From positions 1 through 49,049 of the forward strand of contig JALOMO010000052.1 of NCBI GenBank assembly GCA_025455395.1: a stretch of 49,049 nt of DNA. Reading direction: 5' to 3'. The DNA comes from Bacteroidales bacterium (GTDB taxonomy: Bacteria; Bacteroidota; Bacteroidia; Bacteroidales; VadinHA17). Shown here piece by piece: positions 41,216 to 46,739 of this stretch. The translations under genes were made by a program, and so were the position numbers. Each line of letters begins with the position of its first letter. Position 1 is the stretch's first letter. The notes beneath the pieces are model-generated. The model worked only from the letters and a program-made list of their open reading frames with translations. It was not told the origin of the DNA and made no database searches.

Positions 41216-43453
41216 ATGGCTACACGCAGGCAATTCATCAGGATTTCAGCTGTTGGAGCAGGGGCAGTGATAGCCGGGGCGACCGGCTTCAGGCTGTTGG
41301 CCTCGGAGCTGACTGAGGGTCAGAAGGCTACCCTGGCGGCTCTGAACAGGCGCACTCCCACATACTGCGAAGTTTGTTTCTGGAAGTGTGCGGGATGGGT
41401 TTATAAGGATGAAGGCGGGGCGATAAAGAAGATTACCGGTAATGCGGAAGATCTTAACTGCAACGGCCGGCTCTGTCCGCGCGGTACCGGAGGTGTCGGG
41501 ATGTATCATGATGAAGACCGTCTTCGTAAACCACTGATACGCACTGATGAGCGTGGCACGCAGAGTTTCAGGGAGGCATCATGGGAGGAGGCGTTCGACT
41601 ATATTACGGAGAAGATAAAGAAGATCTCTGCCGAGCATGGTCCGGAATGTATAGCACTCTTTACCCACGGTTCGGGAGGGAAATATTTTTCTACCCTGCT
41701 TCGTGCGCTGGGGTCGCCTCATGTGGCAGCCCCTTCTTATGCACAGTGCCGCGGTCCGCGTGAGGTGGCATTTCAGGCAACCTTCGGCGAGGCCCTCGAT
41801 AGTCCTGAACGTCTTGATATCCGTGACACAAAATGTCTTGTACTTATTGGAAGTCATCTGGGAGAGAACATGCATAACGGGCAGGTACAGGAGATGTCTG
41901 ACGCTATTGACAAGGGGGCCACAATTATCACAGTCGACCCCCGTTTCTCCACTGCTGCCGGCAAATCAAAATACTGGTTGCCCATTAAGCCTGCAACCGA
42001 CATGGCGCTGCTGCTGGCATGGATGAACGTCATCATCAGCGAGGAGCTCTATGACAAGGCTTATGTTGAGAAGTACACCTTCGGGTTCGAATACCTGAAG
42101 GAGCATGTCAGGAACTTGACCCCGGAGTGGGCCTATGGCATAACGACAATTGATCCGACAGTAATACGCGAGACAGCCCGCGAGATGGCCAATGCCGCTC
42201 CGGCGGTTATCGTTCATCCCGGCCGGCATGTTACCTGGTATGGCGATGACACCCAGCGTCTGAGGGCTGTGGCTATCCTTAATGCTCTTCTTGGCTCCTG
42301 GGGTAGAAGGGGAGGATTCTTCCGCCCCGAAACATTCGAGCTGCCCGAGGTAATCCATCCGCCCTACCCGACGCCTAAAAGAACGTGGAGGACAGAGTTC
42401 CCCGATCTCTACAAGCTCGCTGATACTGTACTTGCCAACGGCGTATGTGACGCCAGTGTCCCTGACCCGAGCCGTAACTGTCAGTTCAAGGGATGGATCG
42501 TCAACGGCACCAATCTGATGGAGACGCTTCCCAACCAGGCGAACACCCTGAGAGCGATAGAGGAACTCGACCTGCTGGTTGTCATTGACACTATGCCGAT
42601 GGAGATAACGGGCTATGCCGATGTCATTCTGCCCGAATGCACATATCTTGAGCGTTATGATGACCTGAGGGTCGTCCAGCACCGAAAACCGCAAATAGCC
42701 CTCAGGGCTCCGGCAGCCGAACCTATGTACGACACAAAACCCGCCTTCTGGATGGCCAGGGAGCTGGCAAAGAGACTGGGGGTAATAGATTATTTCCCCT
42801 TTGAAAAGATAGAAGATCAGCTCGACTGGCAGCTGAAGCAGGTGGGAAGCAGCCTGGAAGAGATGATGAAGATCGGGGTAAAGACCTTTGACCGTACTGC
42901 CGATGACCTCTATTTTTATCCTGATGAAGAGGTAGAGTTTTATACCGGTTCGGGAAAGATAGAGCTCTATTCAACATTGCTTGCAGAGGCAGGGTTTGAC
43001 CCGATGCCCGTCTATACAAAACATGAAGAGCCCCCGGTCGGCTATTACAGGCTGAATTACGGGAGAGCCCCGATGCATACCTTCAGCCGTACATCCAATA
43101 ACCCCAACCTTACGGATCTCATGGATGAAAACAGTGTTTGGGTAAACCCGAGAGTGGCAAAAGAGTGGGGGCTGAGCACCGGTCAGTACATTCATCTTGT
43201 TAATCAGGATGGAAAGCGTTCTGAGTTTCCAATAAAAGTACGTGTTACAGAGCGGATCAGGTGGGATTCGGTATATATGGTTCACGGTTTCGGTCATCAG
43301 GAGAAGAAGCTGCGACGATGCTACGGAAAAGGCGCCAGTGACACCAACCTGATAACAAAAGTGTTGGTTGACCCGATAATGGGAGGCACCGGCATGCGTG
43401 GTAACTTCGTGACCTTTATTACTGACCTTGCTAAAGAGGAGGTGGCATCATGA
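41216..43453 (+). CDS. Molybdopterin oxidoreductase, thiosulfate/polysulfide reductase-like catalytic subunit
   Basis: 745 residues with a Tat signal (ATRRQFIRISAVGAGAVIAG). A [4Fe-4S] site is formed by Cys51, Cys54, Cys58 (CEVCFWKCAGW) and Cys87 (NGRLCPRG). The Mo ligand is probably Cys178 (APSYAQCRGPRE). Further molybdopterin contacts: GSHLGENMHNGQ, PLIRTDERGTQSFREASWEE and the C-terminal TSNNPNLTDLMDENSVWVNP. It is closest in form to PhsA/PsrA-type enzymes that reduce thiosulfate, polysulfide or tetrathionate outside the cytoplasm. Its FeS and NrfD partners follow, the first overlapping by four bases; sulfur-transport genes further on support a sulfur substrate. Arsenate or other substrates cannot be excluded. 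Confidence 0.88.
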   Translation: MATRRQFIRISAVGAGAVIAGATGFRLLASELTEGQKATLAALNRRTPTYCEVCFWKCAGWVYKDEGGAIKKITGNAEDLNCNGRLCPRGTGGVGMYHDEDRLRKPLIRTDERGTQSFREASWEEAFDYITEKIKKISAEHGPECIALFTHGSGGKYFSTLLRALGSPHVAAPSYAQCRGPREVAFQATFGEALDSPERLDIRDTKCLVLIGSHLGENMHNGQVQEMSDAIDKGATIITVDPRFSTAAGKSKYWLPIKPATDMALLLAWMNVIISEELYDKAYVEKYTFGFEYLKEHVRNLTPEWAYGITTIDPTVIRETAREMANAAPAVIVHPGRHVTWYGDDTQRLRAVAILNALLGSWGRRGGFFRPETFELPEVIHPPYPTPKRTWRTEFPDLYKLADTVLANGVCDASVPDPSRNCQFKGWIVNGTNLMETLPNQANTLRAIEELDLLVVIDTMPMEITGYADVILPECTYLERYDDLRVVQHRKPQIALRAPAAEPMYDTKPAFWMARELAKRLGVIDYFPFEKIEDQLDWQLKQVGSSLEEMMKIGVKTFDRTADDLYFYPDEEVEFYTGSGKIELYSTLLAEAGFDPMPVYTKHEEPPVGYYRLNYGRAPMHTFSRTSNNPNLTDLMDENSVWVNPRVAKEWGLSTGQYIHLVNQDGKRSEFPIKVRVTERIRWDSVYMVHGFGHQEKKLRRCYGKGASDTNLITKVLVDPIMGGTGMRGNFVTFITDLAKEEVAS

Positions 43454-43983
43454 GATACGCAATGGCTGTTGACACGAAAAAATGTGTCGGATGCAGCGAC
43501 TGTGTCGTAGCATGCCAGACAGAGAACGATGTACCTATCGGCTACTGCCGTGACTGGGTGGTTGAGGTGATGGACGGCACCTATCCGCAGCTGGAGATTG
43601 AGCTCAGGTCTGAGAGGTGTAACCATTGCGGCAACGCCCCATGTGTCAGATGCTGTCCGACAGGAGCAAGCCACATTGCCGAGGGAGGCATTGTACTTGT
43701 CAAACCCAATAAATGCATCGGCTGCGGCGCATGTATCGCCTCATGCCCCTATGATGCACGCTATCCGCATCCGAAAGGATATGTTGATAAATGTACCTTT
43801 TGTATACACCGCGTGAGAGAGGGTATGAAGCCGGCCTGCGTGGCAGTATGTCCTACAAAGTGTATGTACTTCGGCGATCTTGATGACCCCAACAGCGATG
43901 TCAGCATCATACTGAAGAAACGTAAGTACAAGACCCTCATCCCGGAGGCGGGAACAAAACCTGAGTTGTATTTCCTAATCTGA
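43450..43983 (+). CDS. Four-cluster ferredoxin subunit (PsrB/PhsB-like)
   Basis: 177 residues with the cysteine pattern of four [4Fe-4S] clusters: CVGCSDCVVAC (Cys12, 15, 18, 22), CNHCGNAPCVRCCPTGA, CIGCGACIASCPYDA and CTFCIHRVREGMKPACVAVC. It passes electrons between the membrane quinol site on NrfD and the molybdenum subunit. No signal peptide of its own; such subunits travel with the Tat-exported partner. It overlaps the catalytic gene by four bases and precedes NrfD by 7 bp. Confidence 0.94.
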   Translation: MRYAMAVDTKKCVGCSDCVVACQTENDVPIGYCRDWVVEVMDGTYPQLEIELRSERCNHCGNAPCVRCCPTGASHIAEGGIVLVKPNKCIGCGACIASCPYDARYPHPKGYVDKCTFCIHRVREGMKPACVAVCPTKCMYFGDLDDPNSDVSIILKKRKYKTLIPEAGTKPELYFLI

Positions 43984-43990
43984 GAAGAAG

Positions 43991-44932
43991 ATGAATGAAG
44001 AGCTTATTATAAGCGGAAGAGAGAACATGATGGTTGATCCCCATCTGCATATATGGCATTGGCCGATTCCTCTTTATCTCTTCCTCGGAGGTCTTGCAGC
44101 AGGCATACTCTTTTTTGCCGCGCTGTTCTATCTCATGGGCAAGGAGAATGAATACCGCACTGCAGTCAGGAGGATCCCCTTCATTGCTCCTGTTGCACTC
44201 ATTGTGGGCCTTGCCGCCCTTTTCTTTGACCTGCGGCACAAGGCCTTCTTCTGGCAGCTCTACACGGCAATCAGGCTGGAGTCACCAATGTCATGGGGCG
44301 CCTGGACGCTGCTTGTTATTACAACAGCATCAGTGATATGGTGCGCCCTTCATATAAGAGAGTTCTTTCCAGGGTGGGACTGGAGGTACAGGTGGCTGAT
44401 TAACCTGGAGAGCTTCTTCAATAAGTACAAGAAGGTGCTGGCATGGGTTATTCTTATCTATGCTGTCATTACCGGTATTTACACTGGTATTCTTCTCTCG
44501 GCGTTCAACGCCAGGCCTTTATGGAACACATCTGTGCTGGGTCCGCTCTTTCTGGCCTCAGGACTCTCAGCAGGAGCCGCATCGATAGTTCTGGGTTCAA
44601 AAGACAAAAAAGAGAGGCTGCTTTTTACAAGGATAGACCTTATCATACTGGGGGTGGAGCTATTCCTGATCGTGCACATGTTCATGGGTTTCCTTGCGAG
44701 CACACAGGTACAGATAGAGGCAGCTGAGCTCTTTCTCGGTGGCGGGTACACGATGGTATTCTGGATCTTTGTAGTATTCCTGGGTATTATCCTTCCCGCG
44801 TCACTTGATCTGATGGAGCTTAGAGGCTACCACATACCGGCAGTTATACCCGGGTTGCTGGTTCTCTTCGGAAGCCTGATGTTTCGTTTTGTGTTTGTCT
44901 TTGCCGGCCAGGTGAGCCGGTGGTTATACTGA
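43991..44932 (+). CDS. NrfD/PsrC-type membrane quinol subunit
   Basis: 313 residues, about eight membrane helices. WHWPIPLYLFLGGLAAGILF at the start is the NrfD/PsrC signature, followed by FDLRHKAFFWQLYTAIRLES (conserved quinone-site part) and STQVQIEAAELFLGGGY. It anchors the complex and oxidises menaquinol, giving electrons to the ferredoxin subunit. Length matches PsrC. Third gene of the operon. Confidence 0.93.
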   Translation: MNEELIISGRENMMVDPHLHIWHWPIPLYLFLGGLAAGILFFAALFYLMGKENEYRTAVRRIPFIAPVALIVGLAALFFDLRHKAFFWQLYTAIRLESPMSWGAWTLLVITTASVIWCALHIREFFPGWDWRYRWLINLESFFNKYKKVLAWVILIYAVITGIYTGILLSAFNARPLWNTSVLGPLFLASGLSAGAASIVLGSKDKKERLLFTRIDLIILGVELFLIVHMFMGFLASTQVQIEAAELFLGGGYTMVFWIFVVFLGIILPASLDLMELRGYHIPAVIPGLLVLFGSLMFRFVFVFAGQVSRWLY

Positions 44933-44953: not shown

Positions 44954-45490
44954 ATGAGCAACAATCAAAACACAGTGAGGAGCAGGAAATACCTCAATCC
45001 CTATCTCGGCGGGGTGCTCCTGGGCCTGGTGCTGCTTGCAGCAAATTTCATATCAGGCAGGGGTCTGGGCGCCAGCGGCGCCATCAAGAGTGTTGTCGCC
45101 ACTACCATTGAGGTGGTTGACAAAGATGCTGTCAGCACCATGCCGTTCATGTCTGAATATGCCGAATCGCACAGTGGCAGCCCGATGAAGTCATGGCTTG
45201 TCTTCCAGATGATGGGAGTAATTGTCGGAGGCTTTCTGTCAGGAGCATTGGCCGGCCGCCTGAAGCTTAAGGTCGAACACTCGCCGAAGATAACCTCAAA
45301 ACGCCGGCTGATCTTTGCTCTTGCCGGCGGCATACTGTTCGGCTTCGGCTCTCAGCTTGGCAGGGGCTGCACAAGCGGGTCCGCACTGAGTGGCATGGCA
45401 GTACTCTCACTGGGAGGGTTCGTCACAATGATGGGAATTTTCGGTACTGCCTTCGCATTGGCATATTTCTTCAGGAAAAACTGGATTTAA
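44954..45490 (+). CDS. YeeE/YedE-family transporter, half 1
   Basis: 178 residues, four to five membrane helices. Conserved family segments are SGRGLGASGAIKSV near the start and GSQLGRGCTSGSALSGMAVL (Cys139) in the last half. This is the first half of a thiosulfate-transporter (TsuA-like) fold; the other half is encoded by the next gene 15 bp on. In TsuA, cysteines in such G-C-x-x-G loops relay thiosulfate by hydrogen bonds. A 60-residue extramembrane loop between the first and second helices is unusual in size. Direction of transport is not known. Confidence 0.85.
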   Translation: MSNNQNTVRSRKYLNPYLGGVLLGLVLLAANFISGRGLGASGAIKSVVATTIEVVDKDAVSTMPFMSEYAESHSGSPMKSWLVFQMMGVIVGGFLSGALAGRLKLKVEHSPKITSKRRLIFALAGGILFGFGSQLGRGCTSGSALSGMAVLSLGGFVTMMGIFGTAFALAYFFRKNWI

Positions 45491-45505: not shown

Positions 45506-46096
45506 ATGGGACCATTAGCACCTTATGAAATCATTTCGGAGAACACAAATTTTCTCCTTGCCTTCTTCATCGGCATTGCCTTCGGCTGGGTACTCGAGAG
45601 CTCGGGCTTCTCATCAAGCCGCAAACTGGCAGGCGTCTTCTACGGTTATGACACCGTGGTTCTCAAAGTCTTTTTTACAGCAGCAGTAACAGCAATGCTC
45701 GGACTGCTATTTATGAGTCTCTTCGGCTGGGTAGATCTTGACCTTATATATGTCAACCCTACCTACCTGACATCAGCAATCGTTGGTGGCGTAGTGATGG
45801 GCGCTGGCTTTATCATGGGAGGCTTCTGTCCGGGAACAAGCTTCTGCGGAGCAGCTATTGGCAAGATAGATGCCATGGTATTCATCGGAGGCCTGTTTAT
45901 TGGCGTTTATGGCTTCGCCTTCACATACGGATGGTGGGAGAAGATGTACTTCGCAAAATACCTGGGTGAACCAAAGGTAAGCGAGAAGCTTGGCATGTCT
46001 GACGGCCTCTTCGGCCTCTTCCTGATAGTTATCGCCCTTGGCATGTTTTATGTGGCCGAATGGGCAGAGAAAAAATTCCCCAGGGAAGAATACTAA
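45506..46096 (+). CDS. YeeE/YedE-family transporter, half 2
   Basis: 196 residues, about five membrane helices. Family segments are FGWVLESSGFSSSRKLAGVF and GAGFIMGGFCPGTSFCGAAI with Cys108 and Cys114 in the pore motif. It completes the pair with the gene just before it. Together they have all the motifs of the single-chain TsuA-type carrier, so the two probably form one transporter for thiosulfate or another sulfur compound. The C-terminal 30 residues are an extra helix and a charged tail. Confidence 0.85.
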   Translation: MGPLAPYEIISENTNFLLAFFIGIAFGWVLESSGFSSSRKLAGVFYGYDTVVLKVFFTAAVTAMLGLLFMSLFGWVDLDLIYVNPTYLTSAIVGGVVMGAGFIMGGFCPGTSFCGAAIGKIDAMVFIGGLFIGVYGFAFTYGWWEKMYFAKYLGEPKVSEKLGMSDGLFGLFLIVIALGMFYVAEWAEKKFPREEY

Positions 46097-46115: not shown

Positions 46116-46739
46116 ATGAAATCACTGAAATTACTAGCCCTGATTATAATCCCGCTGGGGATCATAATTGCTGCTGTACCACCTGACAAGACAAAGCATT
46201 TCAGGCTTACTGCTGACGAACTGTTGCAGGAAGCTGGTGCAGGTGTACAGTTTATCTCACCCGATGTTGTTGCTGACATGCTGGTCCAGAATGACCCTTC
46301 GCTGCAGCTCATTGATGTCCGCACACCTGAGGAGTTTGATGCATTCAGCCTGCCGGGGTCAATCAATGTGCCTCTCAGTAACCTTCTTGCCGATGAATAC
46401 ACCGACCTTCTAAACCAGGATGCGCGCATGAATGTCTTCTATTCAAATGGCTCGGTATATGCCAACCAGGCCTGGATGATAACAAGACAGCTGGGTTACG
46501 AGAATAATTATGTCCTTGAAGGAGGCCTTAACTACTGGTTCGGGAACATCCTTGCCGCCACAGAGCCCGCGCAGACCAGCCCCAATGAGGAGTTTGCGAA
46601 GTACGACTTCCGCAAGAGCGCTGCCGCGGCACTGGGTGGCGGAGGCGTGGTATCTGCAACAGGTGATGCCCCGACAGTCAAGGCTGTTAAACCTCCGGTG
46701 ACGGCCAAGGCAAAGAAGAAGCCTGCCGGCGGCTGCTGA
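46116..46739 (+). CDS. Exported rhodanese-fold protein with Ser in place of catalytic Cys and C-terminal Gly-Gly-Cys tail
   Basis: 207 residues. The first 21 residues are a hydrophobic signal or anchor (SLKLLALIIIPLGIIIAAVP). The rhodanese domain spans about residues 45-150: LIDVRTPEEFDAFSLPGSIN and QLGYENNYVLEGGLNYWFGN. The active-site loop reads FYSNGSVYANQAW, so Ser110 stands where Cys is expected. The protein has only one cysteine, Cys207, its last residue, at the end of a flexible tail (about 165-207) rich in Ala/Lys/Pro that closes KKKPAGGC. It is the last gene of the oxidoreductase operon, 19 bp after the YeeE/YedE pair. A role as outside-facing sulfur carrier is inference; the fold, the missing Cys and the tail are seen directly. 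Confidence 0.85.
   Translation: MKSLKLLALIIIPLGIIIAAVPPDKTKHFRLTADELLQEAGAGVQFISPDVVADMLVQNDPSLQLIDVRTPEEFDAFSLPGSINVPLSNLLADEYTDLLNQDARMNVFYSNGSVYANQAWMITRQLGYENNYVLEGGLNYWFGNILAATEPAQTSPNEEFAKYDFRKSAAAALGGGGVVSATGDAPTVKAVKPPVTAKAKKKPAGGC

Follow-up and report, generated by a model that had tools for sequence, protein, structure and literature searches.

Sud is a periplasmic polysulfide-sulfur transferase of Wolinella that works with a Psr-type reductase and keeps its pocket cysteine, to which polysulfide sulfur binds. In SoxYZ, the periplasmic carrier of Sox thiosulfate oxidation, the thiol is located in a C-terminal glycine-rich arm of SoxY with the sequence GGCGG (PMC6067878), described as a swinging arm (PMC5336275). 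Among transporters, the YeeE-YeeD (TsuA-TsuB) system for thiosulfate uptake combines YeeE with a cytosolic, TusA-like thiol protein, YeeD; C22 of Spirochaeta YeeE lies at the YeeD interface, and natural YeeE-YeeD fusions occur (PMC11073785). For the YeeE-like transporter SoxT of Hyphomicrobium, soxT1A adjoins the gene of a periplasmic thiol protein whose very C-terminus carries a CxxC motif, and the route by which sulfur reaches SoxT, for which a model was offered, was described as poorly understood (PMC11582611). The same source gives PmpA and PmpB as half-size YeeE proteins, each of some 130 aa and predicted to have four helices (PMC11582611). General context is found in two further papers (PMC9040765, PMC11129491).

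The window (the whole stretch of 49,049 nucleotides that was analysed) encodes a rhodanese-fold protein with a terminal Gly-Gly-Cys, directly behind a YeeE/YedE transporter that is split into two halves. The protein resembles Sud in having a rhodanese domain that is predicted to lie outside the cytosol, and 1qxn (named "sulfide dehydrogenase" in the PDB, and which we take to be Sud of Wolinella) was among its rhodanese sequence matches; unlike Sud, it has no pocket cysteine. It resembles SoxY in the invariant glycine-rich GGC at its C-terminus, whose sulfur-binding role is putative, and two related proteins of a single genome (locus L160) end in GGCGG itself. In contrast to SoxYZ, it has a rhodanese fold and a membrane helix. 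Its Pfam scan gave neither a SoxY domain nor a TusA match, and no Sox family was among the NCBIfam matches listed for the eight proteins scanned. The likeness to YeeE-YeeD lies in the shared transporter family and in a thiol protein as the transporter's partner, but here the cytosolic TusA fold is replaced by a rhodanese fold with an N-terminal helix, the partner is predicted to be periplasmic, and C22 is substituted. The Hyphomicrobium protein differs in being DsbA-like rather than a rhodanese, and its transporter is undivided. PmpA and PmpB are likewise short YeeE-family proteins occurring in twos, but the halves found here have 178 and 196 aa and are accompanied by the tailed rhodanese. As the original prediction had supposed of a system of this form, no description of a GGC-tailed rhodanese with YeeE was found in the accessible text of the open-licence literature, a scope that could miss a subscription paper. 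On balance, we favor the tailed protein as a periplasmic, membrane-anchored subunit that presents sulfur to the split YeeE/YedE by an arm akin to that of SoxY.

The tailed rhodanese-fold protein

The open reading frame at 46116-46739 (+ strand, as for all features below unless stated) encodes 207 aa. The only cysteine is residue 207, the last letter of the C-terminal sequence AKAKKKPAGGC (terminal Gly-Gly-Cys, 46728-46736). The only Pfam domain was Rhodanese (PF00581; residues 49-141, 46260-46538; E 4.3e-15), and the best 50 PDB rows in Foldseek were mostly rhodanese-domain chains. The fold is present without its catalytic cysteine: in the pocket loop FYSNGSVYAN, Ser110 (46443-46445) was aligned to the cysteine of FYCASGKRG in 3d1p (phmmer alignment, read by eye). 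The serine in the pocket and the sole cysteine in a terminal GGC, both noted in the original prediction, were thus confirmed. An AlphaFold2 model made with 50 relatives contained a helix at residues 3-20 (46122-46175), an ordered domain and an arm that was disordered from about residue 176. Mean pLDDT was 87-97 in the ordered blocks from residue 31 to 170, below 50 at residues 176-189, and 43-51 in the last three blocks. The arm (residues 176-207, 46641-46736) bears a basic patch before its end. The helix of the model, together with a hydrophobic helix found between transporter and rhodanese domain in the fusions described below, points to a protein that is anchored in the membrane and faces the periplasm. 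The original prediction had called the protein exported, which agrees with the probable side of the membrane, and membrane-anchored is the better term.

The close-relative set comprised 80 loci from named records, with 79 complete proteins; the incomplete protein of L057 was excluded from the tail count. The pocket loops, read by eye, had serine in all 80. Every complete relative had GGC within its last four residues, at the very end in 78 and as GGCS in one, and no second cysteine was present in 78 of the 79. Between positions -30 and -12 the linker was mostly variable, and lysine was found at -8 in 79/79 and at -7 in 77/79. In 20 sequences spanning 32-100% identity, GGC was invariant and Ser110 nearly so. 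Chance or an assembly artefact was considered and rejected, as the conservation extends over 80 loci from many different records. The case named as refuting the original prediction, a close homologue with a pocket cysteine and without the terminal cysteine, was not found among the 79.

Although common, the family has a patchy spread. Among 295 genomes of the class, the window's genome and two others gave strong matches (E below 1e-60) and one further genome a weaker, tailed match, and E 1e-15 was reached in 40 of 247 genomes sampled from the phylum and 101 of 247 sampled from the order. Record titles place it in the cultured genera Labilibaculum, Carboxylicivirga, Mangrovibacterium and Sunxiuqinia. 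At one locus (L031, 2925-3050; G015:C51), a decayed tail remnant ending GGR stands directly behind an ABC-F gene, the same gene that stands upstream of the operon in the window. This remnant looks like the scar of a whole-operon deletion.

The operon and the split transporter

The operon includes the catalytic subunit of a PsrA/PhsA-type molybdopterin reductase (41216-43453). Its best solved relative was chain A of 2vpw ("thiosulfate reductase" in the PDB, presumably the Thermus polysulfide reductase) at E 1.4e-197, its best NCBIfam family was PhsA, at 460 bits and under the cut-off of 694, and its N-terminus appeared twin-arginine-like by eye. An iron-sulfur subunit of PsrB/NrfC type (43450-43983; Pfam Fer4_11 and others, best NCBIfam NrfC, under cut-off) and an NrfD/PsrC-type membrane subunit (43991-44932; Pfam NrfD, E 1.5e-46) follow, so that all three Psr/Phs subunits are in one operon with the half transporters YeeE1 (44954-45490, 178 aa) and YeeE2 (45506-46096, 196 aa). 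Divergent from the operon lie genes for a DUF134 protein and for a dinitrogenase iron-molybdenum cofactor family protein (PF02579; 40238-41023, - strand).

The gene order from the catalytic subunit through the iron-sulfur and NrfD-type subunits, YeeE1 and YeeE2 to the tailed rhodanese was found in 68 of the 80 loci, and the other 12 were cut by contig ends lying 32 to 2690 bases upstream. YeeE was present in 37 of 60 relatives, and 45 of the 48 contigs with split-YeeE matches in these relatives carried a member of the tailed family. The three exceptions were a lone YeeE1 without a family member in the window's own genome (G000:C82), which may be the broken-off half of contig C177; a contig for which the tailed gene was found on another contig near its end (G004:C227); and a split pair beside a longer rhodanese fusion lacking GGC (G027:C40, L204). 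Contig C177 holds the second YeeE2-rhodanese locus of the window's genome (L163), with the tail GGCE and a double-rhodanese lipoprotein with pocket cysteines nearby; this locus and L164 begin at contig ends. In L165 and L268, YeeE1, YeeE2 and the rhodanese occur without an adjoining reductase. The steadiest partner of the tailed protein is therefore the split YeeE/YedE and not the molybdenum reductase.

Pfam Sulf_transp (PF04143) was above cut-off in both halves. The YeeE2 profile mapped to residues 4-122 of Spirochaeta YeeE (6leo), which is the N-terminal half, and the YeeE1 profile to residues 238-329 (8k1r), which is the C-terminal half. A PDB search with the single YeeE2 sequence matched no chain, and its assignment is based on Pfam and on a profile that also contained full-length YeeE. 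Of the three channel cysteines of Spirochaeta YeeE, two were kept. YeeE1 Cys139 (45368-45370) corresponds to C293 and was cysteine in 158/158 distinct matches; YeeE2 Cys108 (45827-45829) corresponds to C91 and was cysteine in all 161 covered of 163 distinct matches. The third was gone: Ser36 of YeeE2 (45611-45613) takes the place of C22, and none of the 160 split YeeE2 sequences covered at this position had a cysteine there (Ser 154, Gly 5, Thr 1). The three full-length YeeE proteins aligned (L160, L201, L202) all kept it. TusA matches, inspected by eye, never shared a contig with the split pair in the 60 relatives, and 10 relatives that were listed as at least 90% complete and had the pair showed no TusA match; the window's genome has one, on another contig. 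The lost YeeD-facing cysteine and the lack of TusA matches on these contigs suggest that the cytosolic hand-off of the split form may differ from that of YeeE-YeeD.

Fusions, pocket cysteines and tails

In other lineages, the link to the transporter was also seen as covalent fusion. In L115, YeeE2, a helix, the rhodanese domain and GGC form one protein, with YeeE1, cytochrome b561 and a multihaem cytochrome (PF11783) encoded next to it. The phylum and order samples given above (40 and 101 genomes with matches) pointed to further fusions, which were confirmed in fetched stretches of DNA, L258-L266 being covered in part. The terminal cysteine was kept in 21 of 22 distinct YeeE2-rhodanese fusions, the tail being absent in one (L262). 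The multihaem cytochrome or cytochrome b stood in the same locus for 20 of the 22; for the 21st (L265, the same place as L215), a longer stretch of DNA contained both. The hydrophobic helix between YeeE2 and the rhodanese domain was kept in the fusions, and the AlphaFold model of a fusion, with fitting helices but a poor membrane part (mean pLDDT 58), lends weak support to it and gives no docking place for the arm. YeeE of this kind has nine helices (PMC11582611), and YeeD, on the cytoplasmic face, can be fused at the C-terminus (PMC11073785). Consequently, the YeeE2 half would end in the cytosol, and the next helix would take the rhodanese domain to the periplasm.

The fusions mostly adjoin an octaheme cytochrome. 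Octaheme cytochrome, cytochrome b561, YeeE1 and the YeeE2-rhodanese fusion recur together as an operon in Bacteroidota (L249-L257, L267), to which a GGC-ending double-rhodanese lipoprotein and a second GGC rhodanese are often added. Full-length YeeE was represented by three genes in the 60 relatives. Two of them (L201, L202) have close by a rhodanese that lacks the pocket cysteine and carries a GGCGD or EGC tail, with TusA directly upstream; the third (L203) stands without a rhodanese. Tails beside full-length YeeE thus included GGCGG, GGCGD and EGC. L160 and L201 each have several rhodanese genes with the full-length YeeE, two per locus ending GGCGG or GGCGD, and in L201 genes of HdrA-like appearance (by eye) come after the tailed rhodaneses. 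The YedE-TusA-DsrE (YTD) disproportionation cluster was considered for L201 and L202 on account of the adjoining TusA and was taken as a different cluster; the available text of its descriptions mentions no tailed rhodanese (PMC12998232, PMC13047784).

In the original prediction, the arm would connect the YeeE pair with the molybdenum reductase as a sulfur shuttle; Sud serves polysulfide reductase in a like manner in Wolinella. Such a shuttle draws on the PsrA-like, iron-sulfur and NrfD-type genes shared by those 68 loci, on 2vpw as the closest solved relative of the enzyme and on 1qxn among the matches of the rhodanese. As written, it was not supported: the arm is kept where no reductase is visible, in the octaheme fusions, in L165 and L268 and in the operons with full-length YeeE, and it is YeeE that is the steadiest neighbor. 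We consider such a shuttle unlikely. By the same evidence, of the PhsA, NrfD and YeeE genes beside which the original prediction would look for the tail, YeeE is the steady partner and the reductase is not.

To compare pocket and tail, 341 matches were collapsed to 232 distinct rhodanese-domain proteins (90% identity over the last 120 residues). In this descriptive count, biased to tailed proteins because the search profiles included the tail, 168 of the 192 proteins beside or fused to YeeE had the terminal cysteine without the pocket cysteine, 7 had neither, 9 had both and 8 had the pocket cysteine only. The control set away from YeeE was small and mostly from short loci (n=40; 5 clear, 35 at locus edges), and contained 26 with the pocket cysteine only, 8 with neither, 5 with the terminal cysteine only and 1 with both, giving 6/40 with a terminal cysteine. 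The expected coupling of terminal GGC and missing pocket cysteine was thus upheld in the 79 complete relatives and in these 168. One of the 9 proteins with both ends YTCE by chance, leaving 8 of 192 with a pocket cysteine and a Gly-Cys tail; these are encoded in the same operons, as double rhodaneses or as lipoproteins, and could load the arm. The proposal that the thiol had moved from pocket to arm therefore describes the lost pocket cysteine and the gained arm correctly and is too simple for these eight.

The preference for a sulfur-presenting subunit was weighed against a split active site, in which the arm thiol enters the empty pocket of its own or a neighboring rhodanese as the catalytic cysteine. 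Across 50 sequences down to 26% identity, tandem paralogues included, only D67, R69, P86, G137, G205, G206 and C207 were invariant. The invariance of D67 and R69, the SNG loop nearly fixed in close relatives and the common tails of tandem copies would suit such a site, but the two residues D67 and R69 may do no more than stabilize the fold, and serine is fixed only in the closest relatives: tandem copies and fusions have glycine, alanine or other residues at the pocket position and a drifting loop, with the tail cysteine constant. A split active site was accordingly judged quite improbable.

Tandem copies also carry matching tails. Twelve operons contain tandem copies with only 18-32% identity between their bodies; there, the 13 residues before GGC matched at 7.2 positions compared with 2.8 between operons (12 pairs, permutation p 1e-5; third copies in L157 and L169 left out). 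In 10 octaheme-type operons with 28 tails, the five residues before GGC matched at 1.5 compared with 1.03 positions (p 0.002); L259, L260 and L262 were left out, each lacking two tails with GGC as the exact end. Part of this could stem from gene conversion, since one pair in L157 shares 15 of 16 codons and looks like a recent conversion. Codons often differ, with many synonymous changes: in L156, a codon is shared at only 4 of the 13 matching residues. The matching ends probably meet a common partner. A structural tether, in which the terminal cysteine joins copies or a partner by a disulfide and carries no sulfur, would make use of the fact that an operon often encodes two or three tailed proteins whose ends match. 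It looks very unlikely, as a single tailed copy is found in the window's operon and in nearly all 80 loci, and fusion to YeeE2 would make a tether needless, yet the cysteine persists there.

A methyltransferase-domain protein in L145 (1985-2959, - strand), not beside YeeE, ends GGGCC, so glycine-rich cysteine ends are not unique to the rhodanese module. A C-terminal signal for sorting or modification, such as the attachment of a lipid or anchoring at the surface, is scarcely credible: it would fit a short fixed end behind a variable linker and basic patch, as well as the L145 protein, but the tail has no hydrophobic stretch and, L145 apart, the real-looking GGC-like ends (by eye) belonged to rhodanese-domain proteins, nearly all of which adjoin YeeE, a weak test because the DNA examined was fetched around rhodaneses. 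A selenoprotein link, raised by a weak NCBIfam match to TsoB, was dropped, as the terminal codon is cysteine in the proteins translated; the available text of a paper listing selenocysteine rhodaneses mentions no such GGC tail (PMC13188914).

Proposed role of the arm and its wider meaning

A sulfur-presenting subunit would explain together why the gene is linked and even fused to YeeE, why the terminal thiol is fixed and the pocket degenerate, why the tails match and why the cysteine relay is altered. The tailed protein is very probably a partner of YeeE, and its terminal cysteine is likely to be the working thiol. Since in many Bacteroidota its relatives adjoin or are fused to a sulfur transporter, the tail may hand sulfur to it, and we lean slightly toward sulfur being passed between arm and YeeE. 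The rhodanese domain would serve as a docking body. The thiol of Cys207 would take up periplasmic sulfane sulfur as a persulfide or S-sulfonate, supplied by the reductase or by pocket-cysteine rhodaneses that the operon encodes. The basic, disordered arm of some 32 residues would bring this sulfur to the mouth of the channel, where YeeE1 Cys139 (C293) and then YeeE2 Cys108 (C91) would relay it onward, import being the more probable direction than export.

A broader reading, for which we see the chances as evenly balanced, is that Bacteroidota evolved a device for loading YeeE-family transporters in general from the periplasm. It would take the form of a separate subunit with PsrABC, of a YeeE2 fusion with octaheme cytochrome, and, next to full-length YeeE, of GGC-, GGCGD- or GGCGG-tailed proteins. 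The relay of the split form would have been turned round, with the cytosolic YeeD-facing cysteine lost and a periplasmic thiol arm gained.

The presentation of sulfur to YeeE-family transporters on their periplasmic side is treated as open for SoxT in the available text (PMC11582611). The tailed protein is a candidate presenter with one conserved cysteine, which is genetically tied or even fused to the transporter and occurs in cultured genera, so that its role is testable by a single point mutation. A terminal GGC on a rhodanese without its pocket cysteine, beside a split YeeE, may thus serve as the marker of an apparently undescribed sulfur module of Bacteroidota.
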